From the NCBI GenBank assembly GCA_029260165.1, contig JAJDDT010000108.1, positions 1 to 45,028 of the forward strand: a DNA stretch of 45,028 bases, written 5' to 3'. The translations under genes were made by a program, and so were the position numbers. Origin of the DNA: Phycisphaerae bacterium. Lineage in GTDB: Bacteria > Planctomycetota > Phycisphaerae > UBA1845. The number at the start of each line of letters is the position of its first letter. Within the stretch, counting starts at the first letter, position 1. Under the pieces are notes generated by a model, which had not been told where the DNA came from, did no database searches, and saw only the letters and a list, made by a program, of their open reading frames with translations. Positions 853 to 34,996 of this stretch are shown here, one piece after another.

Positions 853-1071
853 GTTTCGTCCGGGTTCGATCGAAGTGTTGTGGGCTTGTCGGCTGCGGTT
901 CGCTCTGGTGCGGGTTTGGTGGTCCGGCGGCGCGTTTTTTGAGGACGAAAAGGGGACAAGGCTGACACGGGCGTTCACCGGTTTGTGGTGGCGTCTGCTT
1001 CCATGCGTGACGTATCGGCCTCGTCATTTTGATTTTGGGTGTGTACCAATCCGGAATGCGAGACGGGACAT

Positions 1072-4000
1072 ATGAGCCGAATGCTGCGCTTTCTACTGGG
1101 TGTTATCGGTCTTGGGATTTTTGCACAATCTGGTTGGGCGGCACAGACGCCGATAGAGGATTCCGGTCCCGAAGGAATCACCGCGATTCTGGGTACTCTC
1201 TATACCAATGGTGAAACGATCACGCGTGTTGACGACTTTCCGGATTCGTTGACGCCTGTGGATGAAGGGGTTGCGCTTGAGCTGCTGCCTCCCGGGACCG
1301 GTCTGCCTCCGGATCGAACGGATCAGACGTGGACGGACGGTATTGTCACGGTGAATGCGCAGGTTCGGTTTGCGGGTTTCGGGCAGACGTTTGGTTGGGA
1401 GCGTGGCGGGGTTCTGACGGATTTGTTTACGGTGAGTGGCTCGGGGTTCGGTGCTACGGGGGGTGTTAACGGGATCGACGTGAGCGGTGGTTTGTTCCAC
1501 TGGTACGATCGCGCTCAAGACGACGATGATGATGAGTTTGTGTGGTTGTCGGATGTTTCTGCGAATTCCGACGGTGTTGATCACATGATTGCCTTCCGCA
1601 TCGAGGGTGGCGCGACAACGAGCACGACGTGGCTTGTGTGTTTTGAAGACCTGCCCGATGGTGGGGATGAGGACTACAACGATCTTTGTGTTGAGATTGT
1701 CGTGGATGATTGTCCGAATGATCCGGACAAGAATGCGCCGGGCGTCTGTGGGTGTGGGGTGCCCGATGTTGATGATGATGGTGACGGCAATTTCGACTGT
1801 ATTGACCAGTGCCCGGACGATCCGAACAAGTCGCAGCCTGGTGCCTGTGGGTGTGGTGTGGCGGATACGGACAGTGATCTGGATGGGACGGCGGATTGTA
1901 CGGATGGATGTCCGAGTGATCCGGCCAAGACGTCGCCGGGTGTTTGCGGTTGCGGTTTCGTCGATACGAACAGTGACAGTGACAGTGACAGCGATAGTGA
2001 CGACGACGATGATAGTGACAGCGACAGCGGATCTGACGAGGATTGCGATCCGAAGGGCCCGAGTTGCGGCAATGGTATTTGCGAGCCGTTTGCGGGTGAG
2101 GACTGCCTGTCGTGTCCCGCTGATTGTCGCGGTGATCAGAGCGGGCAGCCGTGGAACAGATTTTGTTGTGGTGCCGGTGGCGGTGAGAATTTTGAATCGG
2201 ACGTCGCGGATGACGAGATCGGTTCGGTCCATGGTGAGTATGAGCATGTGGAGCTTGGGCACGAGGGGTGCGTTGCTGGAGACCTGGATACGTCTGCTGA
2301 GTTTTCGGGCAATTCGTATGTCGAGTTTCCGCATTCGAGCGACCTTGAGATGGCGGCCGGCTCGATCAGTCTTTGTTTCAAGGATTTGAATTCGATCACG
2401 ACGGCGGGTTTGTTCAGCAAGGATTCTTCGGGCTTTGACGATGGTGGGCATGTCAATATCGGGACGAAGAAGAACAAGGTCGAGGTTCGTCTCCAGAGTG
2501 TGAGTGACAGTTATTTTGTTCGGTCCGGTTCGATACAACTGGATCAGTGGTATCACGTTGTGTTTACGTTTGGTCCGGGCGGGATGAAGTTGTATATGGA
2601 TGGGGCGTTGGTCGATACGGATCCGTTTTCGGGCGGTTTGACCAGCAATATGGAACCGTTTGTGATTGGGGCGGCGACGTGGGTCAGCGGTAATCAGACC
2701 ATTCACTCATTGTCGAACTTTTTCTCCGGGTTGATTGACGAGGTGATCGTCTTTGATCGTCAGTTGACGGATGCGGAGATTGCGAATCTGAACAGTGCGA
2801 AGCTTGCGGGCGTTGCGGCTGGTTTTGGTGACAAGGTGGCCAGTCTTGGTCCGCAGCATTATTGGCGACTGGGCGAGAATCTGGTTGGTTGTGATGACGC
2901 GCGTTGTGATGAGGGGGTCTGGATCTGTGCGAACGACTGCGCGGTTGATTGCATCGATCAGTGTCCGGACGATCCGAATAAGATTGAGCCGGGGGAATGT
3001 GGTTGTGGTTTCAGCGATCGGGACGATGACGGCGACGGTGTAGCCAACTGCAACGATGGTTGTCCGGATGACGCGTCGAAGACGTCGCCGGGGAGTTGCG
3101 GTTGCGGGGTGTCGGACACGGGTGACAGTGATGGGGACGGGTCGCTGGATTGTGCCGACGGGTGTCCTTCGGACCCGAACAAGATTGTGCCCGGTGATTG
3201 CGGTTGTGGTGTGGTGGACGTTGATACCGACGGTGATGGGGCGGCGGATTGTGTTGATCCCTGTTTTGAGGATCCCGGCAAGGTTGATCCCGGGGCGTGT
3301 GGTTGTGGTGAGCTGGATACGGATACCGATCTGGACGGGACGGCGGATTGTATTGACGGGTGTCCGATTGATCCTGCGAAGATTGCGCCCGGGGTGTGTG
3401 GTTGTGGGCATACCGACAAGTGCAACGAAGAGGAATTTGTCAATCTGAGCAGTACGGTTCAGGGGAGTCGATGCGAGGTCAGTTTCAGGCCTGTCAATTC
3501 TGATGGTTTGCCGGCGGGTTTTGTGTTGACGGCGCGATCGCGGATTGATCGCCATTCGCCGACGGACCCCGATGCGGTGGGCATTTTGGGTGCGTACAAG
3601 AACGATTCCAAGGGGGCGGGTGTGTCGCCGGCGGATTGTAGTGGTGGTTCGAGCTTGGCGGGTACGGGTGGCGATCGCGATGAAGAGTTGATCGTCACGT
3701 TCGATGTGCCGGTTCGTGCGTCTGATGTCGTTGTCGGGTTGCGGAAGATCAAGTTTAACAAGGACGATCCGGTCATTTTCATATCGAGCGACGCGAGTCC
3801 GTCGTGGGATTTCACGATTCTTGAGTCGGAGATTGTGGCGGCGTTTACGAGCACCGGGTCGGACAGGGGTGATGTTGATTTTGCCGGATTCACGTCGTTG
3901 CCGGCGGGTTTGTTGATCGACCAGTTCAAGGTACGGGAGACGAAGAAGGACATCCGGGTTTTCTCGGTGGCCACCGCGCTCGAGTGTGACAGCGATGATG

Positions 4001-7000
4001 ACGGGACGTCTGACTGTGCGGATGGTTGTCCTGACGATCCGAACAAGACGACGCCCGGTGATTGCGGGTGCGGCGTTGTGGATATCGATGGTGACGGTGA
4101 CGGGACGGCGGACTGTATTGACGGGTGTCCGGGCGATACTGACAAGACGTCGCCGGGTGTTTGCGGGTGTGGTGTGCCGGACGCGGACGGTGACGGCGAT
4201 GGAACGTTGAATTGTGAGGACGACTGTCCGGCTGACCCGAACAAGTCGTCGCCCGGGGTTTGCGGTTGCGGCAACGTGGATACGGACAGTGATTTGGATG
4301 GGACGGCGGACTGCGACGACGATTGTCCGGCTGATCCGAACAAGACGTTGGCGGGTGCGTGCGGTTGTGGTGTTTCTGACGTGGATACGGACGTGGATGG
4401 TACGCCCGATTGCAACGACGAATGCGACCTTGATCCAGCCAAGACGTTGCCGGGAGCGTGTGGTTGTGGTGTGGCGGATACGGACACTGATGGTGATGGA
4501 ACGGCTGACTGTGTTGACGGGTGTCCGAATGATCCGGCCAAGACGTCTGGTGACGTTTGTGGTTGCGGTGTGTCGGATGTTGATTCCGACGGTGACGGGT
4601 CACCGAATTGTATCGATGGATGCGAGTTTGATCCGAACAAGACCAATCCCGGTGCGTGTGGATGCGGCGTGGCGGACACCGACAGCGACGGTGACGGGGT
4701 GGCGAATTGCAACGACCTGTGTCCCGGAAAGCCTGATCTGGACGACGACGGTGACGGTGTTTTGAACTGTGACGATGGCTGTCCTTTTGATCCGAACAAG
4801 ATTGCACCGGGCGTTTGTGGTTGTGGTGTGTTGGACACGGATTCTGATGGTGATGGAACGGCTGACTGCGACGATGCCTGTGCGAGCGACCCGAACAAGG
4901 TTGTCGGCGGGCAGTGTGGTTGTGGTGTGGCGGACACGGATACGGATGGTGACGGGACGGCGGATTGTAATGATGGTTGTGTCGGTGATCCTGCCAAGGT
5001 CTCGCCGGGTGTCTGCGGATGTGGTGTGGCTGACGTGGATACGGATGGCGACGGTACGCCCAACTGCAATGACAATTGTCCGTTGGATCCGAACAAGGTG
5101 AGTCCGGGTATTTGCGGTTGCGGTGTGTCGGATGCGGATGGCGATGGTGATGGGACGGCGGACTGCAACGATGGTTGTCCGTTGGATCCGACCAAGACTG
5201 TTGTGGGAACGTGCGGCTGCGGTACGCCTGATACGGATTCTGACAGTGATGGTACGCCTAATTGTAATGATGGGTGTCCGAACGACGTGAACAAGATCGC
5301 GCCGGGGGTTTGTGGTTGCGGTGTTTCGGACGTTGACAGCGACGGTGACGGGGCGGCGGATTGTGTTGATGAGTGTCCGGCTGATTCGACGCGGACGACT
5401 GCTGACCCGCAATGCGGTTGCGGTGTTGTGGCTGACGATGACGATCTGGATGGGACGCCCAACTGTGTGGATTTGTGTCCATTGGATCCCGGCAAGACGT
5501 CGCCGGGGATTTGCGGTTGCGGCGTTTCCGACGCGGACGGTGACCTCGATGGGACGGCGGACTGCAACGATGGTTGCCCGATGGATCCGAACAAGGTTGG
5601 TCCGGGGCAGTGTGGATGTGGTGTGGCTGACACTGACGGTGACCTCGACGGGACGGCGGATTGTAATGATTTGTGTCCGACTGATCCTGGAAAGACGTCG
5701 CCGGGTGTTTGCGGGTGTGGTGCGGCGGACACTGATTCTGATGGCGATGGGACGCCTGACTGTAACGACAATTGTCCGTCTGATTTGAACAAGACGGAGC
5801 CTGGTGCGTGTGGGTGTGGTGTGGCGGATACGGACACTGATGGTGACAGCGCCCCCGATTGCAATGAGAGTTGTCCGAACGATCCGAACAAGACTGAGCC
5901 TGGTGCGTGCGGTTGCGGTGTGTTGGATACGGATACGGATGTTGATGGAACAGCGGACTGCAATGACGGATGCCCGTTGGATCCGGGCAAGACGTCCGGT
6001 GGGGCTTGTGGTTGCGGAGTGGCTGACACGGACGGTGATGGTGACGGGACGGCGGACTGCAACGACAATTGTCCGAATGATCCGGGCAAGGTTGACGGTG
6101 GGTTGTGCGGTTGCGGTGTGGTCGATACGGATACGGATGGTGACGGGACGCCTGACTGCAACGACGGATGTCCGATGGATCCGGCCAAGGTTGGTCCGGG
6201 TGCGTGCGGATGTGGTACGCCTGATACGGATGGTGACGGGGATGGTACGCCTGATTGCAATGACAACTGTCCGGCTGACCCGAACAAGACGGGTCCTGGT
6301 CAGTGTGGATGCGGTGCGCTTGAGACCGATACGGATGGCGATGGAACGGCTGACTGCAACGATTTGTGTCCGGATGATCCGGGCAAGATCGAGGCTGGCG
6401 CGTGCGGTTGCGGTGTGAGTGATGCGGATGCTGATGGCGACGGGACGGCTGACTGCAACGACGGTTGTCCGAATGATCCGAACAAGACGATGCCGGGTAT
6501 CTGCGGTTGTGGGACGCCGGATACGGACGGCGACGGGGATGGTACGGCGGACTGCAACGACATGTGCGCCGTCGATCCTGAGAAGACCGAGCCTGGTCAG
6601 TGCGGTTGTGGGAATCTCGAAACGGACAGCGATCTGGACGGTACGGCGGATTGCAACGACGGTTGTCCGGATGATCCGGACAAGGTTTTGCCGGGTGTTT
6701 GCGATTGCGGGACGCCTGATACAGATACCGATGGTGATGGTACGTCTGACTGTGACGATGCCTGCCCGAATGATCCGGGTAAGACGAATCCGGGTGTTTG
6801 TGGTTGCGGTATGCCTGATATTGATTCCGACGGTGATGGTGTTCTCGATTGCAACGATCAGTGCAAGAGCGCGCCTGATGTTGATTCGGATGGTGACGGT
6901 GTGCTCGACTGCGACGACGACTGTCCGAACGATCCGGGCAAGGTTGCGCCGGGTGTTTGTGGATGTGGGACGGCTGACACTGATACGGATGGTGACGGGA

Positions 7001-10000
7001 CGCCGGACTGTGACGATGTGTGTTTGAACGATCCGAACAAGATCGTTCCGGGGCAGTGTGGTTGCGGTAATGTTGAAACCGACACTGATATGGATGGTAC
7101 GGCGGACTGCATCGACGGATGTCCGACGGATGCGAACAAGACGTCGCCGGGGATCTGCGGATGTGGTTTTGCGGATACCGACGGGGACGGGGATGGTACG
7201 GCGGACTGCAATGACAATTGTCCGGTCGATCCGAACAAGGTCGAGCCCGGGCAGTGTGGATGCGGTGCGCTTGAGACCGATACGGATGGCGATGGTACGG
7301 CTGATTGCAATGATCAGTGTCCGAGCGATCCAGCCAAGACGATGCCGGGTACATGCGGATGTGGAACGCCGGATACGGACGGGGACGGAGATGGTACGGC
7401 GGACTGCAACGATTTGTGTCCGATTGATCCGGGCAAGACGGTTCCGGGGCAGTGCGGTTGTGGTGCGCCTGATACGGATACGGACGGCGACGGAACGGCT
7501 GACTGTGTCGACGGATGTCCGGGGAACCCGTTCAAGACGGATCCGGGTGTTTGCGGATGTAATCAGACGGACACTGATTCTGATGGTGACGGGGTGGCGG
7601 ACTGTAATGATTCGTGTCCGCTGGACCCGAACAAGACGGCTCCGGGTGCGTGCGGTTGCGGTACGCCTGAAACGGATACGGACGGTGATGGTGTGGCGGA
7701 CTGCAATGACAACTGTCTGAATGATCCGAACAAGGTTGATCCGGGGCAGTGCGGTTGTGGTGTGGCGGATACCGATACGGATGGCGATGGAACGGCGGAC
7801 TGCAATGATGGTTGTCCGAGTGACGCCGGGAAAGTTGTTCCGGGTGTGTGTGGATGTGGTACGCCTGATACGGATACGGATGGTGATGGTGTGGCGGACT
7901 GTCTCGATTTGTGTCCGAATGATCCGTTAAAGTTGGCGCCGGGCAACTGTGGTTGTGGTGCGGTGGATACGGATACGGATGGTGACGGTACGTCGGATTG
8001 TAACGATTTGTGTCCGAACGATCCGGGCAAGACGAGTCCGGGTGTTTGCGGGTGCGGCGTGGCGGATACCGATGGCGATGCCGATGGTACGCCGGATTGT
8101 AATGACGCGTGTCCTGTTGATCCTGACAAGATTGATCCGGGTGTTTGCGGTTGCGATGTGTCGGACGTTGATACGGATGGAGATGGCACGGCGGACTGTA
8201 ATGATCTGTGTCCTGTGGATCCGTTGAAGACGTCGCCGGGTGTTTGCGGTTGCGGTGCTTCCGATGTGGATACGGACGGTGATGGGACGTCTGATTGTAT
8301 TGACGGATGTCCGGCTGACCCTGCGAAGGTTTCTGCGGGTATTTGTGGGTGTGGCGCGTCGGACGCGGATGGTGACCTTGATGGAACGGCTGACTGCAAT
8401 GACGAATGCCCGGCTGATCCGAACAAGATTCTGACGGGAATTTGCGGTTGTGGTGTGGCTGACACGGACGGTGACAGCGACGGGACGGCTGACTGCAACG
8501 ACAACTGTCCGGCAGACCCGAACAAGATCGACCCGGGTGTTTGTGGTTGCGGTGTGCTGGATATCGACGGTGATGCCGATGGTACGCCTGATTGCAATGA
8601 CAACTGTCCGGCTGATCCGAACAAGATTGATCCGGGTGTTTGTGGTTGCGGCACGTCTGATGTTGACAGTGACAATGATGGTACACCTGATTGCAATGAT
8701 GATTGCCCGAATGATCCGGACAAGATTGTGGTGGGGATTTGTGGTTGCGGCGTGAGTGATGTTGATACTGATGTTGACGGGACGGCTGACTGCGACGATC
8801 AGTGTCCATCTGATCCGAACAAGCAGTTTGAAGGTATTTGTGGATGTGGTGTGACCGACGTTGACAGTGACCTCGACGGTACGCCTGACTGCAACGACAA
8901 CTGTCCGAATGATCCGCTCAAGACGAGTCCCGGGGTTTGTGGCTGTGGGGTGGGCGATACCGACGGCGATGGTGACGGGACGTTTGACTGCAACGATTTG
9001 TGTCCGGCGGATCCGAACAAATCGGCACCGGGGATTTGCGGTTGTGGGGTGTCCGATGCTGATGGTGACCTGGATGGCACGGCGGACTGTAATGACAATT
9101 GTCCGGCTGATCTGAACAAGACCGAGCCGGGGCAGTGTGGTTGTGGTGTGGCTGACACGGATACGGACCTGGACGGGACGGCTGATTGTAACGACGGTTG
9201 TCCGACCGACCCGGACAAGACGTCTCCGGGAACGTGTGACTGTGGTACGCCTGAAACGGATACGGACAGTGACGGGACGCCCGATTGCAACGACGGTTGT
9301 CCGAATGATCTGAACAAGACGAATCCGGGCGTTTGCGGTTGCGGTGTGGCTGATGTCGATTCCGATGGTGATGGCGTTTTCGACTGCAATGACCAGTGTT
9401 TCAATGCTCCGGATGTTGATACGGATGGCGACGGCACGCTGGATTGCGATGATGATTGCCTGAACGATCCGAACAAAATCGCTCCTGGTCTTTGCGGATG
9501 CGGTGTGCCTGATACTGACACCGATGGTGACTTGACGCCTGATTGCAACGACGCGTGCATCAACGATCCGACCAAGATTGATCCGGGTCAGTGTGGCTGC
9601 GGCAATCCGGATACGGATACTGATCTTGACGGCGTGGCTGACTGCAACGATGGCTGTCCGAATGATCCGGACAAGGTGTCGCCGGGTGTCTGCGATTGTG
9701 GCACGTCAGATGTGGATACCGATGGTGACGGTGTGTCTGACTGCAACGATGGTTGCCCGATGGATATCAACAAGGTGATGCCGGGGCAGTGTGGTTGCGG
9801 TTTTGTTGATGTTGATTCGGACGGTGACGGTGTGGCTGACTGCAACGATCAGTGCCCCGCAGATTCGACCAAGACGGCGCCGGGTATCTGCGGTTGCGGC
9901 GTGGTTGACATCGATACCGATCTTGACGGCGTGTTCGATTGCAACGATTTGTGCCCGAACGATCCGGACAAGGTTCTGCCGGGGCTGTGTGGATGTGGTA

Positions 10001-11544
10001 TTTCTGACGCTGATACCGACGGGGACAGTACGCCGGATTGCTCCGACGATTGCCCGATGGATCCGAACAAGATCGCGGCAGGCATTTGTGGCTGCGGCGT
10101 GAGCGACGCGGATACGGATGGCGATACCGTGGCAGATTGCAATGACAACTGTCCGGCTGACCCGAACAAGGTCGATCCGGGCGTGTGTGGTTGTGGTGTG
10201 GCGGATACCGATTCTGACAGCGACGGGACGTTGGACTGCAACGACAACTGTCCGAATGATTCGAGCAAGGTCGATCCGGGTGTTTGTGGTTGCGGGGTCA
10301 GTGATGTTGACAGCGATCTAGATGGTACGGCTGACTGCGATGATGGTTGTCCGAACGATCCGGACAAGGTCAATCCGGGGCTGTGTGGATGTGGTATTTC
10401 TGACGCTGATACCGACGGGGACAATACGCCGGATTGCTCCGACGGTTGCCCGACTGATCCGACCAAGATTGTGCCGGGTGTTTGCGGCTGCGGAACTGCG
10501 GATACGGATGGTGACAGTGACGGTACTGCCGACTGCATTGACGGATGTCCGGCCGATCCGAACAAGACCTCCGCGGGTCAGTGTGGTTGCGGTGTGGCTG
10601 ACACCGACCTGGATGGTGACGGAATAGCCGACTGCAACGACGGTTGTCCGAACGATCCGGGCAAGACTGATCCGGGGACGTGTGGTTGCGGTGTGTCCGA
10701 CGACGACTCCGATGGTGATGGTACGGCTGACTGCAACGATGGTTGCCCGAGCGATCCGAACAAGGTGACCGAGGGGCAGTGCGGATGTGGTGTGCCGGAT
10801 GATGACACTGATTCGGACGGAACAGCCGACTGTAATGATGGTTGTCCGGACGATCCTGACAAAATCAGTCCGGGTGTTTGTGGTTGCGGTAATATCGACA
10901 CGGATACCGATAGCGACGGAACAGCCGACTGTGTTGACAACTGTCCGAACGATCCGAACAAGATCGTTCCGGGAGCGTGTGGTTGTGGTGTGGCTGACAC
11001 CGACGGTGACAGCGACGGGACTCCTGATTGTAACGATGCCTGTCCGGCTGACCCGACCAAGATCGCACCGGGTGATTGTGGTTGTGGTGTGTCTGATGCG
11101 GATACCGACCTTGATGGTGTGGCCGATTGCAATGACGGGTGCGTGAATGATCCCGCCAAGACGTCGCCGGGAGTTTGCGGTTGCGGTGTGTCGGACGATG
11201 ACGGCGATTTGGATGGTACGGCTGATTGCTTCGATCTCTGTCCTGCTGATCCAGCCAAGGCGACACCGGGGCAATGCGGTTGCGGTATTCCCGATTCAGA
11301 TTTTGATGGTGACGGTGTCCCGTCGTGCATTGACGGGTGCCCGATCGATCCCTTGAAAACGGTCGTGGGTATTTGCGGCTGCAATGTCCCTGATACAGAC
11401 GCGGACAACGATGGTGTGGCTGACTGTCTGCCGCCGTTGGCGATTCCGGTGATGTCGAACCGGGGTGTGGTGGTTCTGCTGGTGTTGTTCGTTATTGGAA
11501 TGATGTTGAGATTTCGACGAGCGGATCGGGGGCGAGCGGTTTAG
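1072..11544 (+). CDS. Giant Cys/Asp-repeat secreted protein with IPTL-type sorting tail
   Basis: A 3490-residue protein. ATG 1072 is chosen because a signal peptide (MLRFLLGVIGLGIFAQSGWA) follows at once; GTG 1039 is in frame but would precede it with polar residues. Order of parts: a DUF4114-like domain (FEDLPDGGDEDYNDL, near residue 200); three 33-residue repeats; an SD-rich linker; a CGNGICEPFAGEDC cysteine cluster; a LamG/concanavalin-like domain (about residues 375-590); five repeats; a second unique beta-rich domain (about 795-965); an unbroken array of 73 repeats; and a tail of AIPVMSNRG, a helix and RFRRADR. The consensus repeat is xxPGxCGCGxxDxDxDxDG followed by TxDCNDxCPxDPxK, four cysteines and a calcium-loop-like acidic run each, resembling thrombospondin type 3 repeats. 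It is probably a cell-surface, calcium-binding, disulfide-rich fibre or adhesin sorted by the XrtH encoded next. That role is inference; frame and architecture are seen directly. Confidence 0.9.
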   Translation: MSRMLRFLLGVIGLGIFAQSGWAAQTPIEDSGPEGITAILGTLYTNGETITRVDDFPDSLTPVDEGVALELLPPGTGLPPDRTDQTWTDGIVTVNAQVRFAGFGQTFGWERGGVLTDLFTVSGSGFGATGGVNGIDVSGGLFHWYDRAQDDDDDEFVWLSDVSANSDGVDHMIAFRIEGGATTSTTWLVCFEDLPDGGDEDYNDLCVEIVVDDCPNDPDKNAPGVCGCGVPDVDDDGDGNFDCIDQCPDDPNKSQPGACGCGVADTDSDLDGTADCTDGCPSDPAKTSPGVCGCGFVDTNSDSDSDSDSDDDDDSDSDSGSDEDCDPKGPSCGNGICEPFAGEDCLSCPADCRGDQSGQPWNRFCCGAGGGENFESDVADDEIGSVHGEYEHVELGHEGCVAGDLDTSAEFSGNSYVEFPHSSDLEMAAGSISLCFKDLNSITTAGLFSKDSSGFDDGGHVNIGTKKNKVEVRLQSVSDSYFVRSGSIQLDQWYHVVFTFGPGGMKLYMDGALVDTDPFSGGLTSNMEPFVIGAATWVSGNQTIHSLSNFFSGLIDEVIVFDRQLTDAEIANLNSAKLAGVAAGFGDKVASLGPQHYWRLGENLVGCDDARCDEGVWICANDCAVDCIDQCPDDPNKIEPGECGCGFSDRDDDGDGVANCNDGCPDDASKTSPGSCGCGVSDTGDSDGDGSLDCADGCPSDPNKIVPGDCGCGVVDVDTDGDGAADCVDPCFEDPGKVDPGACGCGELDTDTDLDGTADCIDGCPIDPAKIAPGVCGCGHTDKCNEEEFVNLSSTVQGSRCEVSFRPVNSDGLPAGFVLTARSRIDRHSPTDPDAVGILGAYKNDSKGAGVSPADCSGGSSLAGTGGDRDEELIVTFDVPVRASDVVVGLRKIKFNKDDPVIFISSDASPSWDFTILESEIVAAFTSTGSDRGDVDFAGFTSLPAGLLIDQFKVRETKKDIRVFSVATALECDSDDDGTSDCADGCPDDPNKTTPGDCGCGVVDIDGDGDGTADCIDGCPGDTDKTSPGVCGCGVPDADGDGDGTLNCEDDCPADPNKSSPGVCGCGNVDTDSDLDGTADCDDDCPADPNKTLAGACGCGVSDVDTDVDGTPDCNDECDLDPAKTLPGACGCGVADTDTDGDGTADCVDGCPNDPAKTSGDVCGCGVSDVDSDGDGSPNCIDGCEFDPNKTNPGACGCGVADTDSDGDGVANCNDLCPGKPDLDDDGDGVLNCDDGCPFDPNKIAPGVCGCGVLDTDSDGDGTADCDDACASDPNKVVGGQCGCGVADTDTDGDGTADCNDGCVGDPAKVSPGVCGCGVADVDTDGDGTPNCNDNCPLDPNKVSPGICGCGVSDADGDGDGTADCNDGCPLDPTKTVVGTCGCGTPDTDSDSDGTPNCNDGCPNDVNKIAPGVCGCGVSDVDSDGDGAADCVDECPADSTRTTADPQCGCGVVADDDDLDGTPNCVDLCPLDPGKTSPGICGCGVSDADGDLDGTADCNDGCPMDPNKVGPGQCGCGVADTDGDLDGTADCNDLCPTDPGKTSPGVCGCGAADTDSDGDGTPDCNDNCPSDLNKTEPGACGCGVADTDTDGDSAPDCNESCPNDPNKTEPGACGCGVLDTDTDVDGTADCNDGCPLDPGKTSGGACGCGVADTDGDGDGTADCNDNCPNDPGKVDGGLCGCGVVDTDTDGDGTPDCNDGCPMDPAKVGPGACGCGTPDTDGDGDGTPDCNDNCPADPNKTGPGQCGCGALETDTDGDGTADCNDLCPDDPGKIEAGACGCGVSDADADGDGTADCNDGCPNDPNKTMPGICGCGTPDTDGDGDGTADCNDMCAVDPEKTEPGQCGCGNLETDSDLDGTADCNDGCPDDPDKVLPGVCDCGTPDTDTDGDGTSDCDDACPNDPGKTNPGVCGCGMPDIDSDGDGVLDCNDQCKSAPDVDSDGDGVLDCDDDCPNDPGKVAPGVCGCGTADTDTDGDGTPDCDDVCLNDPNKIVPGQCGCGNVETDTDMDGTADCIDGCPTDANKTSPGICGCGFADTDGDGDGTADCNDNCPVDPNKVEPGQCGCGALETDTDGDGTADCNDQCPSDPAKTMPGTCGCGTPDTDGDGDGTADCNDLCPIDPGKTVPGQCGCGAPDTDTDGDGTADCVDGCPGNPFKTDPGVCGCNQTDTDSDGDGVADCNDSCPLDPNKTAPGACGCGTPETDTDGDGVADCNDNCLNDPNKVDPGQCGCGVADTDTDGDGTADCNDGCPSDAGKVVPGVCGCGTPDTDTDGDGVADCLDLCPNDPLKLAPGNCGCGAVDTDTDGDGTSDCNDLCPNDPGKTSPGVCGCGVADTDGDADGTPDCNDACPVDPDKIDPGVCGCDVSDVDTDGDGTADCNDLCPVDPLKTSPGVCGCGASDVDTDGDGTSDCIDGCPADPAKVSAGICGCGASDADGDLDGTADCNDECPADPNKILTGICGCGVADTDGDSDGTADCNDNCPADPNKIDPGVCGCGVLDIDGDADGTPDCNDNCPADPNKIDPGVCGCGTSDVDSDNDGTPDCNDDCPNDPDKIVVGICGCGVSDVDTDVDGTADCDDQCPSDPNKQFEGICGCGVTDVDSDLDGTPDCNDNCPNDPLKTSPGVCGCGVGDTDGDGDGTFDCNDLCPADPNKSAPGICGCGVSDADGDLDGTADCNDNCPADLNKTEPGQCGCGVADTDTDLDGTADCNDGCPTDPDKTSPGTCDCGTPETDTDSDGTPDCNDGCPNDLNKTNPGVCGCGVADVDSDGDGVFDCNDQCFNAPDVDTDGDGTLDCDDDCLNDPNKIAPGLCGCGVPDTDTDGDLTPDCNDACINDPTKIDPGQCGCGNPDTDTDLDGVADCNDGCPNDPDKVSPGVCDCGTSDVDTDGDGVSDCNDGCPMDINKVMPGQCGCGFVDVDSDGDGVADCNDQCPADSTKTAPGICGCGVVDIDTDLDGVFDCNDLCPNDPDKVLPGLCGCGISDADTDGDSTPDCSDDCPMDPNKIAAGICGCGVSDADTDGDTVADCNDNCPADPNKVDPGVCGCGVADTDSDSDGTLDCNDNCPNDSSKVDPGVCGCGVSDVDSDLDGTADCDDGCPNDPDKVNPGLCGCGISDADTDGDNTPDCSDGCPTDPTKIVPGVCGCGTADTDGDSDGTADCIDGCPADPNKTSAGQCGCGVADTDLDGDGIADCNDGCPNDPGKTDPGTCGCGVSDDDSDGDGTADCNDGCPSDPNKVTEGQCGCGVPDDDTDSDGTADCNDGCPDDPDKISPGVCGCGNIDTDTDSDGTADCVDNCPNDPNKIVPGACGCGVADTDGDSDGTPDCNDACPADPTKIAPGDCGCGVSDADTDLDGVADCNDGCVNDPAKTSPGVCGCGVSDDDGDLDGTADCFDLCPADPAKATPGQCGCGIPDSDFDGDGVPSCIDGCPIDPLKTVVGICGCNVPDTDADNDGVADCLPPLAIPVMSNRGVVVLLVLFVIGMMLRFRRADRGRAV
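1972..2038 (+). repeat. GACAGT-type microsatellite coding an SD/DD linker
   Basis: Imperfect six-base repeats (GACAGT, GACAGC, GATAGT, with GACGAC in the middle) encode a Ser-Asp/Asp-Asp run between the third 33-residue unit and the CGNGIC cluster of the giant protein. It is a flexible acidic linker, possibly length-variable by slippage in six-base, frame-keeping steps. Confidence 0.8.
4042..11434 (+). repeat. Array of 73 tandem 99-bp coding repeats
   Basis: I counted 73 consecutive units in the translation from TTPGDCGCG to TVVGICGCN. Nearly all are exactly 33 codons. Three (7th, 28th, 53rd) carry an extra 20 residues of the form xPDxDxDGDGxLxCDD, and one (14th) has one extra residue. The measured span fits 73 x 33 plus these additions. 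Two earlier short blocks, about 1720-1970 and 2960-3420, add three and five units. Confidence 0.9.
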
Positions 11545-22290: not shown

Positions 22291-23097
22291 ATGATCTCAG
22301 CACTGAACAACACGAGCGCGTTGCGCGCCGGGTTCCAATTCAATCGCAACCAGAACGAGCAGAACGCGGTGATGCAAAGACTCGCAACCGGAAAACGCAT
22401 CAACGCCGGCAAGGATGGTCCTGCGGACCTCATCTCCTCCGAAAGACTCTCCGCCGAGATCAAGGCGCTCGAAGCAGAAACCCGCAGCTTCGAAAGACAA
22501 CAGGCAAACGCCAACATCGCAGACGCCAACGTCGGACAACTATCGAGTCTCTACAGCGAACTCAACGGTCTGGTTGTTTCCAGTGCCAACAGCGCCGGAC
22601 TCAGTGACGCGGAAATCGCCGCAAACCAGCAGCAGATTGACTCCATCAACTCGAGCATCCAGCGTCTTACCGGAGACGCCGTCAAATCCGTCGACACCAC
22701 CGGGCTGTCAACTACCGAAGCAGACGCACTGAAGCAACAGCTCACCGACTCCGCCGCAGCAGCACGCTCGATCGCATCGGGAGGTGCCAACAACGTCACC
22801 AACGGCGATCTCGCGGCCGCGCAGGCTGCCATCGCCCAATCCATCACCGACGTCGCCTCGGCAAGAGGCTCCATCGGCGCGTTCCAGAAAAACACCCTTG
22901 CCCCCGGGATTCGATCGAATCAGGTCGCCATCGAGAACCTGACCGCGAGTCGAAGCAGGATCGAAGACGCAGACTTCGCCGTTGAAACAAGCAACCTCGC
23001 CCGCACCAACATCCTCACCGCCGCCGGCATCAAGACTCTGAAAATCGCGCAACAACAAGCCAGTACCGTCCTGAGCCTCCTTTCCAACGACGATTGA
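22291..23097 (+). CDS. Short flagellin-family protein
   Basis: A 268-residue protein with both conserved ends of flagellin. The N-terminal coiled region has MQRLATGKRINAGKDGPADL, matching the family's LxxLSSGxRINxAxDDAAGL pattern. The C-terminal region has SRSRIEDADFAVETSNLARTN, then LKIAQQQASTVLSLL. The central variable part is only about 130 residues, so the protein lacks large surface domains and is at the short end for flagellins. It would be exported by the flagellar type III apparatus and polymerise into filament. No other flagellar gene is in the window; the gene stands alone between a PEP-CTERM gene and a MerR regulator. Confidence 0.88.
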   Translation: MISALNNTSALRAGFQFNRNQNEQNAVMQRLATGKRINAGKDGPADLISSERLSAEIKALEAETRSFERQQANANIADANVGQLSSLYSELNGLVVSSANSAGLSDAEIAANQQQIDSINSSIQRLTGDAVKSVDTTGLSTTEADALKQQLTDSAAAARSIASGGANNVTNGDLAAAQAAIAQSITDVASARGSIGAFQKNTLAPGIRSNQVAIENLTASRSRIEDADFAVETSNLARTNILTAAGIKTLKIAQQQASTVLSLLSNDD

Positions 23098-26243: not shown

Positions 26244-27590
26244 ATGGACCTTTTTCACGAACAACACGAGAAACGACGGCAGGCGGTGGCACCCCTGCCT
26301 GTGCGGATGAGGCCTGTGTCGCTGGACGATTTCGCGGGTCAGTCGCATTTTATCGGTCCCGGGAAGCTGCTGAGGCGGATGTTGGAGGCGGACCGCCTGA
26401 CCAGCGCGGTGTTCTACGGTCCGCCCGGGACGGGGAAGACGACGCTGGCGCACATCATCGCGACCGTGACGGAGGCGTCGTTCGAGCAGGTCAACGCAGC
26501 CGCGGTGGGTGTGAAGGAGATTCGGGAGATTCTCGCACGGGCGCGGGAGCGGGTTGAAACGGAGGGTCGCAGAACGGTCCTGTTTGTTGATGAACTCCAC
26601 CGGTTCAACCGTGCTCAACAGGACGTGCTGTTGGGCGACGTCGAGGACGGGATCGTGATCCTGCTGGGCGCGACGACGGAAAATCCGTTCTTTTCGGTGA
26701 ACACGCCGCTGTTGTCGCGCAGTCAGGTGTTTCAGTTCGAGCCGTTGTCCGTGGCTGACATCCGGCAATTGATGCGACGGGCGCTTGTCGATACTGAGCG
26801 CGGTTTGGGAAAATTCAACGCCACGATCGAGGACGACGCGCTCGAGCATCTGGCTGTTTCGTGCGATGGTGACGCCCGACGCGCCCTGACGGCGTTGGAG
26901 ATTGCGGTCGTCAGCCAGTCAGCCAAGGGCAATAATCAACCCACCGTCGTCGGTATCGAGGTTGCGGCTGAGTCGATTCAGAAAAAGGTCATTCGCTACG
27001 ACGCCGGTGGTGACGAGCATTACGACGCAGCCAGCGCGTTGATCAAATCCATCCGCGGGAGCGATCCCGACGCTGCGATCTATTGGCTGGCGAAGATGTT
27101 GGAGGGTGGCGAGGACCCGCGATTTATCGCACGTCGGCTGGTCATCGCGGCGGCGGAGGATATTGGCAACGCCGATCCGCGCGGACTCGTCGTCGCGCAG
27201 GCGGCGGCTGATGCGACAAATTTCATCGGTCTGCCCGAGTGTCAATTGCCCCTCGCTCAGGCGACGATCTACCTCGCGTGTGCGGAGAAATCGAACTCCG
27301 CTACCAAGGCGATCGGGGCTGCCCGGGAGGATGTTCGCCATGGTCGAACGATCCCGGTTCCCATACATTTGCGCAGCGGTCATTATCGTGGGGCGGACCA
27401 GCTCGGTCACGGGGTTGGATACCGATACCCGCATGACGAACCCGAGGGTATGATGCAGGAATATCCGGGTGTGGATCGTACGTTTTACGAACCTGTCGAG
27501 CGCGGGTACGAACGACAAATGTCAGCCTATCTGAAAAAACTGCGTGCGATGCAACGTGATCGCGGAACCGAATCGTCGGGCGGCGGGTGA
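26244..27590 (+). CDS. rarA: Replication-associated recombination protein A (AAA+ ATPase)
   Basis: A 448-residue AAA+ ATPase of the RarA/MgsA/WRNIP1 family, related to clamp-loader subunits, acting at stalled replication forks and single-stranded gaps. Visible motifs: MRPVSLDDFAGQSHFIGPG at the N-terminus, Walker A GPPGTGKTT (residues 59-67), Walker B VLFVDELHRFN, and sensor 1 GATTENPFFSVN. The C-terminal clamp-loader-like part holds AASALIKSIRGSDPDAAIYW and the conserved YRYPHDEP. Length is typical. The stop overlaps the GTG of the next gene by four bases, so the two are coupled. Confidence 0.95.
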   Translation: MDLFHEQHEKRRQAVAPLPVRMRPVSLDDFAGQSHFIGPGKLLRRMLEADRLTSAVFYGPPGTGKTTLAHIIATVTEASFEQVNAAAVGVKEIREILARARERVETEGRRTVLFVDELHRFNRAQQDVLLGDVEDGIVILLGATTENPFFSVNTPLLSRSQVFQFEPLSVADIRQLMRRALVDTERGLGKFNATIEDDALEHLAVSCDGDARRALTALEIAVVSQSAKGNNQPTVVGIEVAAESIQKKVIRYDAGGDEHYDAASALIKSIRGSDPDAAIYWLAKMLEGGEDPRFIARRLVIAAAEDIGNADPRGLVVAQAAADATNFIGLPECQLPLAQATIYLACAEKSNSATKAIGAAREDVRHGRTIPVPIHLRSGHYRGADQLGHGVGYRYPHDEPEGMMQEYPGVDRTFYEPVERGYERQMSAYLKKLRAMQRDRGTESSGGG

Positions 27591-28533: not shown

Positions 28534-29550
28534 GTGGCCAGAAGACGAAACCGACGACGTGCGAGGCGAAACAGGCGGATTGTGGTCCTTGCGATTCTGG
28601 CTGGGAGTGCGGGTCTGGTCTACTGGCAGTGGCCTGTGTTGCAGTCCATCAGGACCGGGCCGGTCATCACAACCATCACACCGCCCGTGTTGACAAACGA
28701 TCGCCCCGAGACGACGCCGCTGGACGGCGGTCCCTACAAAAACGTCCCCGAGCGGGGTGAGAATCCGTTGTCAGCTACCCCGAAAAACGTCATCGCGGAC
28801 GATTCGCGGCCGGAGGATTTGCTCGCGTCCGCCCGACATGAACTATCCGCCGGCGATCTCGTTCTCGCGCGTGCCCATTTCAGCGAGGCGCTCAATGTCG
28901 GGCTGCCCGAGGCGGACACGATCGAAGCGCGAGCGGCATTGCGCAGGCTGGGTCGGGAAACGATTTTCTCTGCGACGGCCAAGCCGGGCGATCCACTGAC
29001 CGAGTATTACACGATTGTTCCGGGCGACAGTTTGTTCAAAATTGCCAAACGATTTGACATCACGGCGGAGTTGTTGGCCCGGATCAATAACATCAGGAAC
29101 GTCAACCTGATTCAGGCGGGTAGACGCATCAAGACCGTCAAGGGACCGTTCAACGTTCGCGTTACCAAGAGCACGCATACGCTCGACATTTTCATTGGTG
29201 ACACCTTTGTCGATCATTTCAGTGTGGGGCTTGGTTCGGACGACTCGACACCGCTGGGTGGCTGGGTTGTTAAGGACAAACTGAAAAACCCGACCTATTA
29301 TCCACCGCGCGGTGGGAAGATCGTGTCCGCGGACGATGCGGAGAATCCGCTCGGCGAACGTTGGATCGGGCTGCAGGGCGTCAAGGGTGGTGCGGTTGGG
29401 CAGATGCGGATCGGGATCCACGGAACGATCGCACCGGAGTCGATCGGACAGAATGCGTCGATGGGGTGTGTGCGGATGCTCAATGAAGATGTTGAACGAC
29501 TGTTTGAATTGGTGATCGAACAGAAATCGACTGTTGAGATTACGCAGTAG
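28534..29550 (+). CDS. LysM/L,D-transpeptidase (YkuD) envelope protein
   Basis: A 338-residue protein starting at GTG 28534. It has a very basic N-terminus, one membrane anchor (about residues 15-32), a linker with a short TPR-like helical pair (residues about 92-138), a LysM peptidoglycan-binding domain (YTIVPGDSLFKIAKRF, about 158-203) and a C-terminal YkuD domain (about 205-338). The catalytic motif is complete: HGT upstream, then SMGCVRM with Cys312 as nucleophile. The family forms 3-3 peptidoglycan crosslinks or attaches proteins to peptidoglycan. This matters because planctomycetes were long thought to lack peptidoglycan. The AhpD-like gene starts 45 bases downstream. Confidence 0.93.
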   Translation: MARRRNRRRARRNRRIVVLAILAGSAGLVYWQWPVLQSIRTGPVITTITPPVLTNDRPETTPLDGGPYKNVPERGENPLSATPKNVIADDSRPEDLLASARHELSAGDLVLARAHFSEALNVGLPEADTIEARAALRRLGRETIFSATAKPGDPLTEYYTIVPGDSLFKIAKRFDITAELLARINNIRNVNLIQAGRRIKTVKGPFNVRVTKSTHTLDIFIGDTFVDHFSVGLGSDDSTPLGGWVVKDKLKNPTYYPPRGGKIVSADDAENPLGERWIGLQGVKGGAVGQMRIGIHGTIAPESIGQNASMGCVRMLNEDVERLFELVIEQKSTVEITQ

Positions 29551-29595
29551 GTTCTTCCAGTCTGGAAACGTGCGAGCCGGTCGGGATCACAAATC

Positions 29596-30153
29596 ATGGC
29601 GTGGATCAGGCAAATCAGTGACGAGCAGGCTGAGGGGCAGTTGGCGAAAATCTTTGAGGCTGCGATCAAACGTGGTGGGAAGGTCTTCAACATTGTCCGC
29701 CTGCAGAGTTTGAACCCATCTGTCCTGCAAGCGGGGATGGGCATCTACATGGCTACCATGTTCAAGGACTCGCCTCTGTCGCGGGCGCAGCGGGAAATGC
29801 TTGCAACCGTGGTTTCGCGGGCGAACGAGTGCCATTACTGAACGATCTCCCACTCAGAAGACCTCCGGTCGGAGGCCAATGACGATGTACTCGCGGAGGC
29901 AGTGCGTAAAGACTATCGCACAGCCGATCTATCTCCCGCCGACCGGTCGTTGTGCGACTACGCCGACAAGCTGACCCGGACCCCAGCCGCGTGCACCGAA
30001 TCTGACGTGCAGAAGCTACGCCAACAGGGTTTTGACGACCGTGCGATTCACGACGCCGCACAGGTGATCGCCTATTTCAACTACATCAACCGCATCGCCG
30101 ACGGGCTTGGGGTCGATCTGGAACCGGACATGCCGCCGCCTGAGGACCACTAA
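29596..30153 (+). CDS. AhpD-like peroxidase-related selenoprotein (in-frame TGA read as Sec82)
   Basis: The ATG 29596 frame meets TGA at 29839-29841, then continues open to TAA at 30151-30153, giving 185 residues. The TGA falls at the second position of the family's active-site pair: ANECHY, TGA, TISH. That makes Cys79-x-x-Sec82 with His86 four residues on, the CxxC...H spacing of AhpD-type peroxidase-related proteins. The part after TGA is family-like (KDYRTADLSPADRSLCDYADKLT, then DRAIHDAAQVIAYFNYINRIADGLG), and its codon use does not change. A hairpin 20-34 bases after the TGA has a GGTC loop as bacterial SECIS elements require. The protein would be a carboxymuconolactone decarboxylase-fold thiol/selenol peroxidase. 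The alternative, a pseudogene with a Cys-to-stop change, is less likely as no other defect is seen. Confidence 0.85.
29862..29875 (+). promoter_or_regulatory. SECIS-like hairpin after in-frame TGA
   Basis: CCTCC (29862-29866), loop GGTC, GGAGG (29871-29875). The apical loop begins with G and lies 26 bases after the TGA, inside the range of bacterial SECIS elements, which recruit SelB. The stem is short (five pairs), and one more pair can form beyond a mismatch at its base. Confidence 0.65.
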
Positions 30154-30174
30154 CCCCTACAATCAACACCGCCA

Positions 30175-31767
30175 ATGTCTGATACTTCCGTGACCAAGAC
30201 AAGCCATCAGGACATTCCGATCCCGCCTCGGTATTGGTGGCTCAAGCGGATCGGGGTTGGTGTGTTCGTGCTCATGTTGGTCGTCGTGGGATTGCGATTG
30301 TGGTGGGGATATTCCGTCGATCGCCGCGTGGACGAGATGATTGCCAAATACCACGCCGCCGGGGAACCCATCCTTCCCGAAGACTTCGCCTCCGACCCCG
30401 TTCCGGACGAGGAGAATGCGGTCTGGTATTACGAGCAGGCGGCGGCAGCGATAACCCACCCGACCGGCGTGACGATCACGATTGATGACATCAGCAGTAA
30501 TCCGGAATTGTTACGCACGCACGCCGATGAGGTCGCTACGATCATGGCCGCCAACGAGTCGTTTTTTGAATTTGCCCACCAGGCCCGATCGGTAGAGCAC
30601 ACGGATTGGAACTTCAATCTCTCCGGGCCGTTGATCAACACGATGTTGCCAAGCCTCAAGGTCTATCGCGCAGGTGCGAAGCTTCTCACTGTTGCAGCCT
30701 CAAAACACGCCCTTGACGGCGATCCAGGATTGGCTGTCCGGAAGTTTGAAGACGCGCTTGCTTTGGCAAACACTGTCCGAGAGTCTCCGACACTCATCAG
30801 CCAATTAGTCGCGATGGCGGTGGATAGGCTGATTTGTTCCACGCTGGAGCGCGCAAGTGCGACGATCGTCAACGCGGATTCTCGCGATGACGTTGAACGA
30901 CTGATCCGCGAATTGCTTGATCCACATGCCCCCAACGACGGGTGGTCCAGGGCGATGTTCATGGAGAGGGCGACATACCTTGACACGGTTTCGAGAATGG
31001 CCAATGGAACACTCACCACCTCCGCGATGGGTGGTGGCAGTTGGCCTGTAACATCCAGGCCGGCTGATCGTGCCCTTGCGTTGATTATGGGACCAGCCAT
31101 CAAGCTGTCCGCCATCGATATCATGGCGTACGCAGACTCGGCGGAACAAGCGGGTGGTCAGCCAACATATCCAAAAGCCATGCAGATGTACTCTGATCCT
31201 TCCTTTCCAGGAATCAAGGGTCCCTCACCGTCAAAACGACTTGGGCAACTGGTGCAATCTATTTTATTGCCATCCTTTGAACGCGCCCTCGTCATTCATT
31301 TTCGGGTACGCGCGCAGAGAATCATGACTGCGACCGCGTTGGCTATCCACCTGTATGAACTTGATCACGGTGAGCGTCCTGAATCTCTGGAAGAATTGGT
31401 TCCCGACTATTTACCCACCGCCCCGTTGGACCCGTTTCATCCCGATGGCAAGATCATTGGCTACCTGCCCCACGCGGACAAACCGCGCCTCTACAGCGTC
31501 GGCCTAGACGGGGTGGACGACAAGGGGACATATGAACGAAAAAAACGCGGTGCCATCAACCTTGAGGTGAAAGACTCTCCGTATTTTCTCAACGGCCCAC
31601 CCCCTGCTATTGACGAATCGTCCACACCATTACAACCCGGACACGATGGCGGTGACATAGAGAACGAGCAGGGAAATTCCAAACGGAACGACAAGAAGAA
31701 TCCCAAACCAAAAAATGGGGATGAAAATGGCCAGCTTCGTCGTAGTAACGGTTCGCCTCCGGAGTGA
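30175..31767 (+). CDS. Membrane-anchored protein of unknown function
   Basis: A 530-residue protein with a short polar N-terminus, one transmembrane segment (about residues 24-43, RIGVGVFVLMLVVVGLRLWW) and a long, mostly helical soluble part. Near residue 380, ATALAIHLYELDHGERPESLEELVPDYLP, followed by PLDPFHPDG and YSVGLDGVDDKG, resembles the C-terminal module seen in type II secretion pseudopilin-like and many planctomycete proteins. The last 45 residues are low-complexity and hydrophilic. No catalytic motif is recognised. The 3' end overlaps the convergent gene on the other strand by 138 bases. Confidence 0.75.
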   Translation: MSDTSVTKTSHQDIPIPPRYWWLKRIGVGVFVLMLVVVGLRLWWGYSVDRRVDEMIAKYHAAGEPILPEDFASDPVPDEENAVWYYEQAAAAITHPTGVTITIDDISSNPELLRTHADEVATIMAANESFFEFAHQARSVEHTDWNFNLSGPLINTMLPSLKVYRAGAKLLTVAASKHALDGDPGLAVRKFEDALALANTVRESPTLISQLVAMAVDRLICSTLERASATIVNADSRDDVERLIRELLDPHAPNDGWSRAMFMERATYLDTVSRMANGTLTTSAMGGGSWPVTSRPADRALALIMGPAIKLSAIDIMAYADSAEQAGGQPTYPKAMQMYSDPSFPGIKGPSPSKRLGQLVQSILLPSFERALVIHFRVRAQRIMTATALAIHLYELDHGERPESLEELVPDYLPTAPLDPFHPDGKIIGYLPHADKPRLYSVGLDGVDDKGTYERKKRGAINLEVKDSPYFLNGPPPAIDESSTPLQPGHDGGDIENEQGNSKRNDKKNPKPKNGDENGQLRRSNGSPPE

Positions 31768-32675: not shown

Positions 32676-33830
32676 ATGGATTTTGATCTACCTGAAGAAA
32701 TGTCAGCCCTGCGGGAAATGACCCGCAGATTCTGCGCCGAGGAAATAGGCCCGCACGCTCGTGAATGGGACCGAACCGGCGAAATCCCGATGGACACCAT
32801 CAAAAAAATGGGCGAACTCGGGTTCATGGGCACGCTCGCACCGGCGGACCTCGACGGCGCGGAGCTGGGCTACCTCGGCAATGCCATCGTCATGGAAGAA
32901 TTCGCCAGACAATGCGGCGGAACCGCCCTCATGCTGGCGGCCCACAACGGATTGTGCCAGGGGCACCTCCTCGTGGCTGCCAACGACGAACAGAAGAAGA
33001 AATACCTCCCCGCACTCGCACGCGGCGAGATGATCGGCTCGTGGTGTCTGACCGAACCGAGCAGCGGATCCGACGCAGCCGCCCTCAAGACCCGTGCGGA
33101 ACTCAGGGGCGACGAATGGGTCATCAACGGCTCGAAAATGTTTATCACTAACGGTGACCGGGCGGGCTTGTTCATCGTGACAGCCCGAACCAGCGATGAA
33201 AGCAAGACCAAGGGCATCAGCGCGTTCATCGTCGAGCGCGACACGCCTGGCTTGTCTACCGGTATCAAGGAAGACAAGATGGGCATGCGTGCCAGCGACA
33301 CTGTGCCGGTGAACTTTGAAAATGTGAAAATCCCCAGGGAAAACCTCTGCGGCGAACTCAACATGGGGTTCATCGACACCCTGAAGGTGCTCGAGCGCGG
33401 ACGCATCGCGATCGGATCGCTGTCCGTCGGCCTCGCGCGTGGCGCGATGGAAGAAGCTGTCGCCTATGCGAAGGAACGCGAACAATTCGGCAAGCCGATC
33501 ATTCAACACCAGATGTTGCAGTTCATGCTCGCGGACATGGCCACCCAAATCGACGCAGCCCGCCTGCTGTGTCGAAAGGCGGCGTTGCTACAGGACTCCG
33601 GCCAATCTTCTGAAATCGAGTCGGCTATGTGCAAACTGTTCGCCAGCGAAATCGCGACGAAAGCCTGCCTCGACGCGATCCAGATTTGCGGCGGTTATGG
33701 CTATACGAAAGACATGCCAATGGAGCGACTGATGCGAGACGCCAAGCTGTGTGAAATCGGCGAAGGCTCCAGCCAGGTGCAACGTCTGGTCATCGCCCGC
33801 AAGCTGCTCGACTTGAGAAAGGGTGCGTGA
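32676..33830 (+). CDS. Acyl-CoA dehydrogenase (short-chain type)
   Basis: A 384-residue flavoenzyme introducing a trans-2,3 double bond into acyl-CoA and passing electrons to ETF. It has the three-domain family layout: N-terminal helices (MDFDLPEEMSALREMTRRFC), middle beta domain with FAD-binding signature WCLTEPSSGSDAAALKT, and C-terminal helices with QFGKPIIQHQMLQFMLADM and QICGGYGYTKDMPMERLMRD. The catalytic base region reads CEIGEGSSQVQRLVIARK. Length is typical. It is the first gene of the operon and its stop overlaps the next start by one base. Exact chain-length or branched-chain preference cannot be fixed by eye. Confidence 0.93.
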   Translation: MDFDLPEEMSALREMTRRFCAEEIGPHAREWDRTGEIPMDTIKKMGELGFMGTLAPADLDGAELGYLGNAIVMEEFARQCGGTALMLAAHNGLCQGHLLVAANDEQKKKYLPALARGEMIGSWCLTEPSSGSDAAALKTRAELRGDEWVINGSKMFITNGDRAGLFIVTARTSDESKTKGISAFIVERDTPGLSTGIKEDKMGMRASDTVPVNFENVKIPRENLCGELNMGFIDTLKVLERGRIAIGSLSVGLARGAMEEAVAYAKEREQFGKPIIQHQMLQFMLADMATQIDAARLLCRKAALLQDSGQSSEIESAMCKLFASEIATKACLDAIQICGGYGYTKDMPMERLMRDAKLCEIGEGSSQVQRLVIARKLLDLRKGA

Positions 33831-34996
33831 TGGATTTTGAACTGTCGGAAGACCATCGCATGCTACAGGAATCCGTTCGCGACTTCGCGTTCAAAGAGGT
33901 AGCCAGGGGTGCAGAGCAACGCGACCACGAATGCGCCATGCCACAAGGGTTGATGGATCAACTTAACGAATTGGGTTTGCTCGGCATTTGTATCCCGGGT
34001 CAATACGGTGGAGCGGGGATGGACACGCTCGCTTCGACACTGGTCGTCGAGGAAATTTCAAAAGCGTGTGCCGGTACGGGTGTATTTTTGAGCGCCCACA
34101 ATTCTCTTTGCGTCGATCCGATCATGGCGTTTGGCACGGAGACGCAGAAGCAAAAATATCTGTCGATGCTCGCAAGCGGGACGGTCGGATGCCTGTCACT
34201 GACAGAAGCCAACAGCGGATCCGACGCGGGGGGGGCAAAGTGCATGGCCGTCGAAGAAGCAGACGGTTGGCGTATCAATGGCAGCAAGATTTTCGTCACC
34301 AACGGCAAGGAAGCAGGCGTCATGGTGCTGATTGCCGTGACCGATCCCGACGACAAGCGACACCGCCTCAGCGCGTTCATCGTGGAGCATCCGACCGCCG
34401 GCCTGCGTATCGGCAAGCTCGAAAAGAAGCTCGGTATTCGTTGTAGCTCGACGGCGGAGTACGTTTTTGAGGACTGCATCATTCCGAAGGACAACCTGCT
34501 TGGCGAGCGAGGAAAGGGCTTCAACGTCGCACTCGCGACTCTCGACGGTGGGCGCATCGGCATCGCCGCACAAGCGCTGGGGATCGCCCAGGCCTGCCTT
34601 TACGTCGCGTCGAAATACGCCAACATGCGCGAGCAGTTCAACCGCCCAATCGCCGCGTTCCAGGCCATCCAAACCAAAATCGCCGACATGGCTGTCCGCA
34701 TCGAAGCCTCGCGAAACCTGGTCTATCGGGCAGCGTGGTTGAAGGATCAAAAACGTTCGTACGGGTATTACAGCGCCATGGCGAAACTGTACGCCAGCGA
34801 GACCGCCTCGCTGTGCGCTAATCACTGCGTGCAGGTCTTCGGTGGTTATGGTTATTGTCAGGACTATCCGGCTGAGCGGTTTCTGCGCGACGCCAAAATC
34901 ACCGAGATATACGAAGGCACGAGCGAAATCCACCGTCTGGTCATCGCCCGAGGCTTGTTGAAGGAAGCCGAAAACAACTGGATGTCGAGTATCTAG
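33830..34996 (+). CDS. Acyl-CoA dehydrogenase, second copy (butyryl-CoA dehydrogenase-like)
   Basis: A 388-residue acyl-CoA dehydrogenase. ATG 33830 shares one base with the previous stop; a GTG one codon earlier is possible. Signatures: CLSLTEANSGSDAGGAK, YGGAGMDTLASTLVVEEISK, QFNRPIAAFQAIQTKIADM, GGYGYCQDYPAERFLRDAK and the catalytic region TEIYEGTSEIHRLVIARG. This last is the classic short-chain form with Glu before GTSEI. It differs clearly from the first copy, so the two probably act on different substrates, for example a straight-chain and a branched C4 acyl-CoA. That division is inference from the mutase downstream. Confidence 0.93.
   Translation: MDFELSEDHRMLQESVRDFAFKEVARGAEQRDHECAMPQGLMDQLNELGLLGICIPGQYGGAGMDTLASTLVVEEISKACAGTGVFLSAHNSLCVDPIMAFGTETQKQKYLSMLASGTVGCLSLTEANSGSDAGGAKCMAVEEADGWRINGSKIFVTNGKEAGVMVLIAVTDPDDKRHRLSAFIVEHPTAGLRIGKLEKKLGIRCSSTAEYVFEDCIIPKDNLLGERGKGFNVALATLDGGRIGIAAQALGIAQACLYVASKYANMREQFNRPIAAFQAIQTKIADMAVRIEASRNLVYRAAWLKDQKRSYGYYSAMAKLYASETASLCANHCVQVFGGYGYCQDYPAERFLRDAKITEIYEGTSEIHRLVIARGLLKEAENNWMSSI

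Follow-up and report, generated by a model that had tools for sequence, protein, structure and literature searches.

The window analysed here, the whole stretch of 45,028 nucleotides from a Phycisphaerae bacterium, carries on its forward strand a frame of 185 residues that runs from the ATG at 29596 to the TAA at 30151-30153. An internal TGA at 29839-29841, codon 82, is the sole stop inside this otherwise open frame. It lies in the context Cys79-His-Tyr-U82-Thr-Ile-Ser-His86, in which the codon of Cys79, the first active-site cysteine of the CxxU motif, occupies 29830-29832 and that of His86, a conserved active-site histidine, occupies 29851-29853, both on the forward strand. Downstream of the TGA, on the same strand, a bacterial SECIS-like hairpin is found within the coding sequence at 29862-29875. 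The frame, its coordinates, Cys79, the TGA and His86 are exactly as given in the original prediction, which had proposed a selenoprotein at this locus. When the frames of the window that hold one TGA, flanked on each side by about 40 or more codons free of stops, were ranked by the third-position G+C of their poorer flank, the sole criterion used, the frame at 29596-30153 came out at the top of 140; the remaining one-TGA frames were ranked by third-position G+C only (best 25 of 140). Several other genes of the window were also observed. These include a 3501-residue open frame at 1039-11544 with a laminin-G-like domain and DUF4114, whose product is probably a giant surface protein, a short flagellin-like protein of 268 residues at 22291-23097, in which the flagellin N and C domains are both present, and two acyl-CoA dehydrogenase genes at 32676-34996 that overlap by four bases.

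The read-through protein belongs to a known enzyme family. It matches the Pfam family CMD (PF02627) with 47.1 bits and the NCBIfam family TIGR01926, peroxidase-related protein, with 159.1 bits over residues 3-177, well above the cut-off of 81.8. A search of the host genome with TIGR01926 returned this gene as the single match. Membership of two further families was considered and rejected: NF041238 (AhpD_rel_CFYUT) scored 86.7 bits over residues 2-179, below its cut-off of 175 bits, and NF053654 also scored under its family cut-off. Together with the alignment of homologues, the TIGR01926 match bears out the proposal that the gene encodes an AhpD-type enzyme with selenocysteine (Sec) in place of the second active-site cysteine.

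An AlphaFold model of the read-through protein, with U given as C, has a mean pLDDT of 96.1, and the protein is confidently predicted to fold as an AhpD-type enzyme. The best PDB match is 6k40, the AhpD of Deinococcus radiodurans (Z 25.5, 38% identity, 181 residues), followed by 2oyo, a peroxidase-related protein of Deinococcus geothermalis (Z 25.3, 34% identity, 181 residues). 6k40 is probably the AhpD-like protein of D. radiodurans whose part in peroxide resistance is discussed below. In an alignment of 32 proteins, Cys79, Tyr81, residue 82 and His86 are invariant and Glu67 is conserved in at least 90%. The spacing is that of AhpD, with Glu67 followed 12 residues on by Cys79-x-x-U82, and with His86 four residues after U82. 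The proton relays described for related enzymes consist of Glu118, Cys130, His132, Cys133 and His137 in Mycobacterium tuberculosis AhpD and of Glu36, Cys48, Tyr50, Cys51 and His55 in PA0269, as listed in PMC3141380. The spacing of Glu67, Cys79, Tyr81, Sec82 and His86 equals that of PA0269 and also that of M. tuberculosis AhpD, in which His132 stands at the place of Tyr81.

The genes needed for selenocysteine insertion are present in the host genome, an assembly of 4.43 Mb in 119 contigs with a listed completeness of 100% and a listed contamination of 1.71%. Its nearest homologues point to a planctomycete of the Phycisphaerae. A tRNA-Sec with anticodon TCA (68.1 bits) was found, as were SelA (541.6 bits, contig C5), SelB (361.3 bits, including a neighbouring piece), which adjoins SelA on contig C5, and SelD (367.8 bits, contig C10), all on contigs other than that of the AhpD-like gene. 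The absence of such machinery had been named beforehand as grounds for dropping the prediction, and the search thus came down on its side. The host selD gene (L018, G000:C10:9728-10648) has an in-frame TGA of its own, in SCAG-TGA-AGKLP, and itself looks like a selenoprotein gene; because of this, the AhpD-like gene is, as judged from sequence, likely to be at least the second selenoprotein gene of this genome. Across 60 relatives, including the host, co-occurrence was uninformative: SelA or SelB scored over the cut-off in 32 of 36 genomes with the TGA form vs 21 of 24 other genomes (Fisher p = 1). Completeness is 63-81% in the four TGA-form genomes with no SelA or SelB match over the cut-off; in G003, whose listed completeness is 98%, SelB was found and SelA gave no match.

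The TGA is conserved among homologues. The aligned codon was TGA in 110 of 110 loci, 80 of which came from named genomes and 30 from a search of relatives, and in 139 of 139 after the addition of 29 loci from a phylum-wide search; the gene's own copy is counted in both figures, and the loci were picked either for resembling the Sec query or for scoring best, so that they are a selected set rather than an unbiased census. Some genomes are apparently present in both collections (for example, L022 and L103), which leaves 129 distinct downstream stretches. In none of the 139 loci is there a second stop near the TGA, the range covered being 85 codons downstream and, where the sequence extended that far, 60 codons upstream; the extra stops of L106, L111 and L119 sit 95-97 codons past the TGA and are the gene ends. 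The 139 loci match through the TGA in one frame, so the frameshifts or other stops in the downstream half that would have spoken against the prediction were not found in them. The phyla given for the named loci are Planctomycetota, Acidobacteriota, Chloroflexota, Actinomycetota and Gemmatimonadota, and phylum labels are absent for 69 of the 132 Sec rows of the tree described below. In the phylum sample of 119 genomes, 72 matches scored over the cut-off on their own, 63 with one TGA and nine with no stop, the place of the TGA being checked only where the locus was given. An exchange of Cys and Sec among aligned homologues was a further point proposed for checking, and it was seen: in 21 rows from 20 stretches, picked mainly as matches without a stop, the Sec position holds Cys in 16, TGA in three, and Leu and Gly in one each. 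His86 is present in 129 of 129 distinct sequences.

Some homologues depart from this pattern. At L163 (G130:C155:92700-94100), related genes lie in tandem, one with CHY-TGA and its neighbour with CEYL, which has Leu at the Sec position; the Leu-bearing copy is perhaps decayed or repurposed. Homologues in G002, G028, G042, G046, G053 and G054, including L179 and L180, show a break in the match at about residue 97. The aligned stretches of L179 and L180 exceed the query in length, suggestive of an insertion immediately past the SECIS region.

On a tree of 148 proteins, which has weak support at 60 of its 143 inner branches and includes several long Cys rows, two changes account for the Sec label, compared with a shuffled mean of 14.5, a pattern that fits one main Sec clade. 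Substitution rates were estimated with the NG86 method against six copies, with no dS obtained for four of the 12 segments. Against the same-genus copy L103, dN/dS was 0.056/1.755 before the TGA and 0.122/0.937 after it, and against L107 the values were 0.297/1.667 and 0.299/1.314, respectively; in most of the more distant copies, the two halves change alike. The low dN relative to dS against L103 and L107 indicates purifying selection on the part downstream of the TGA, which is thus maintained as protein, if a little less strictly in the closest pair.

The hairpin consists of CCUCC (29862-29866), the loop GGUC (29867-29870) and GGAGG (29871-29875), and the first G of the loop is the 26th base past the TGA, with 25 nt between them. 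Criteria for bacterial SECIS elements as printed in PMC13188914 are a loop of 3-9 nt, a stem of 4-16 bp, a G in the first two loop positions, a loop 16-37 nt after the UGA and an MFE of -7.5 or lower. The hairpin agrees with these, having a 4-nt loop, a 5-bp stem, a spacing of 25 nt and a value of -8.1 in a 29-nt fold; the bare stem-loop alone reaches -7.0, short of the printed -7.5. Folding of this one sequence is unexceptional, with the hairpin no more stable than shuffles in the four stretches folded (z +0.55, +0.78, -0.83 and -0.26), and the case for the hairpin is therefore a comparative one. A search of 29500-30200 against Rfam gave two matches far under their gathering scores and nothing credible.

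Among the 129 distinct sequences, a SECIS-shaped hairpin reaches at least -7 kcal/mol in 113 and -7.5 in 103, and in 16 it is missing at -7 kcal/mol. Resampling of synonymous codons with the codon usage of the family (20 runs) gave a mean of 25.8 and a maximum of 33 at -7, and a mean of 23.6 and a maximum of 32 at -7.5. As a control, ten other in-frame positions in the same genes yielded 2-31 of 128-129 at -7. With all 129 sequences laid out gap-free, 749 of 1032 stem cells are paired, vs at most 720 in 500 shuffles that ignore relatedness and 299-488 when the stem is slid by 1-3 columns. Counted in the same way, 71 cells are compensatory, vs at most 51 in the shuffles and 18-40 when slid. Most of these fall at two positions, one changing from C-G to U-A (25) and the other from C-G to G-C and others (28), and the outermost of the eight stem positions is mostly unpaired (paired in 20 of 129). 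Codon choice is constrained as well: the Leu90 codon is CTC in 109 of 118 against a background of 37%, and the Arg91 codon is CGG or CGT in 111 of 119 against a background of 33%. The comparison across sequences thus indicates that the hairpin is conserved beyond coding need. The predicted hairpin with a G-first loop at the usual SECIS distance is supported by both its coordinates and the 113 of 129 sequences, and of the two lines by which it was to be checked, the single-sequence fold proved unremarkable, whereas the compensatory changes exceeded the shuffles.

The hairpin does not occupy the same place in all members of the family. In 22 of the 120 tree rows that have a hairpin, the best one lies nearer to the TGA, with the loop at 20 nt or less. 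In the majority register, a GAG strand further downstream is the pairing partner of the conserved CUCCG strand of the Leu-Arg codons, which places the loop 24-25 nt after the UGA. A second register is seen in 13 distinct sequences out of the 129 (L030, L031, L033, L035, L037, L038, L039, L042, L044, L054, L061, L063 and L133), nine of which are labelled Acidobacteriota: here a CUCCG-like strand pairs instead with an upstream CACG strand, and the loop lies about 17 nt after the TGA. The register label needs seven changes on the tree, at least three of which are forced by well-supported branches. We consider the odds about even that the SECIS hairpin changed register more than once within the AhpD-like family while Sec stayed, in which case SelB binding would tolerate displacement of the hairpin by 7-8 nt while the protein is otherwise fixed.

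Two other ways of reading the TGA were weighed against selenocysteine insertion. It could be a true stop, in which case the gene would yield a truncated product of 81 residues or be a pseudogene in decay, and TGA does end other genes of the window, for example, at 27590, 33830 and 14848. The retention of this TGA in all 139 retrieved loci, with no other stops nearby, and the purifying selection on the downstream half led us to reject the pseudogene; in addition, the downstream half is modelled as folding together with the upstream half, and the genome has the Sec machinery, which makes a true stop very improbable. Alternatively, the TGA could be read as Cys or Trp through a general change of the code or through near-cognate suppression. 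Cys holds the position in relatives, as this would lead one to expect, yet TGA terminates five of the 11 forward-strand frames of the window whose ends were inspected, so that the code is not changed wholesale and a code change was rejected. The presence of tRNA-Sec, SelA, SelB and SelD and a SECIS hairpin that is kept beyond coding need also argue against it, and this second alternative is even less probable than a true stop. It is therefore very likely that the internal TGA inserts selenocysteine.

Our main reading, with a probability of about 0.96, is that 29596-30153 is a bacterial selenoprotein gene whose UGA82 is decoded by tRNA-Sec via SelB and the downstream hairpin, and whose product is an AhpD/CMD-fold redox enzyme, probably a peroxidase or a disulfide reductase acting by Cys79-x-x-Sec82. 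The genes and the hairpin are observed; SelB would bring tRNA-Sec to UGA82 on recognizing the in-frame hairpin about 25 nt downstream. The product would be an all-helical enzyme with a Cys79-x-x-Sec82 pair and Glu67, Tyr81 and His86 as proton relay. By analogy with AhpD, Sec82 may attack a peroxide or disulfide, after which Cys79 would resolve the selenenyl-sulfide. We infer the enzymatic role from Cys-containing relatives only, and by that analogy, the most likely role of the product is that of a thiol/selenol peroxidase or of a disulfide reductase that supplies a peroxiredoxin. The protein could also be a selenoprotein that uses the AhpD/CMD fold for different redox work, for instance reductive dehalogenation or disulfide exchange. 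The fold family is mixed in function, and other chemistry is possible because the debrominase Bmp8, whose chains align at Z 19.3, has the same fold. The closest structures, at Z about 25, are nevertheless peroxidase-related proteins and D. radiodurans AhpD, and the Glu/Cys/Tyr/Sec/His spacing matches AhpD. In the account of a review, loss of the AhpD-like protein makes D. radiodurans more sensitive to H2O2, and both cysteines of the CxxC motif matter (PMC8945050). A function other than that of a peroxidase is accordingly unlikely, though a realistic alternative to the peroxidase-type role.

The selenoprotein had been predicted to be of an undescribed kind, and this does not hold. An AhpD-like protein of COG2128 with CxxU was tabulated with 27 sequences in the Sargasso Sea study of 2005 (PMC1088965), in which SECIS-like stem-loops were reported for every new selenoprotein, and AhpD-like 1 of COG2128, also with CxxU, was tabulated with 299 selenoproteins in PMC2398784. 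A review from 2026 lists an AhpD-like protein, TIGR01926, with CxxU, citing the Sargasso paper of Zhang 2005 as reference 59 (PMC13188914). With these three listings, the family is already described, and 29596-30153 is a genuine new member of it. What the gene adds is a clear, well-conserved case whose SECIS can be put to the test. It lends support to the presence of a selenium-dependent redox enzyme in planctomycetes and, going by how the retrieved loci are labelled, in four other phyla, and such genes can be cut short by ordinary gene calling.

Compared with known systems, the gene is closest by tabulated description to the Sec-containing AhpD-like proteins of the Sargasso and GOS collections (TIGR01926/COG2128, exemplar MCB9421940.1), with which it shares the NCBIfam family and CxxU, and among which it is a planctomycete member. 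NF041238, the Sargasso "hypothetical protein 1", is likewise named a (seleno)protein and is tabulated with CxxU, but its profile is longer (357 positions) and, as noted above, scores the window protein below cut-off. M. tuberculosis AhpD (1gu9, 1knc) shares the AhpD fold (Z 11.8, 136-138 residues aligned) and the relay spacing, whereas its identity to the window protein is 12% and both of its active-site positions are Cys. The proteins of D. radiodurans (AhpD, 6k40) and D. geothermalis (2oyo) have the same fold as the window protein, with Cys at the second active-site position where the window protein has Sec.
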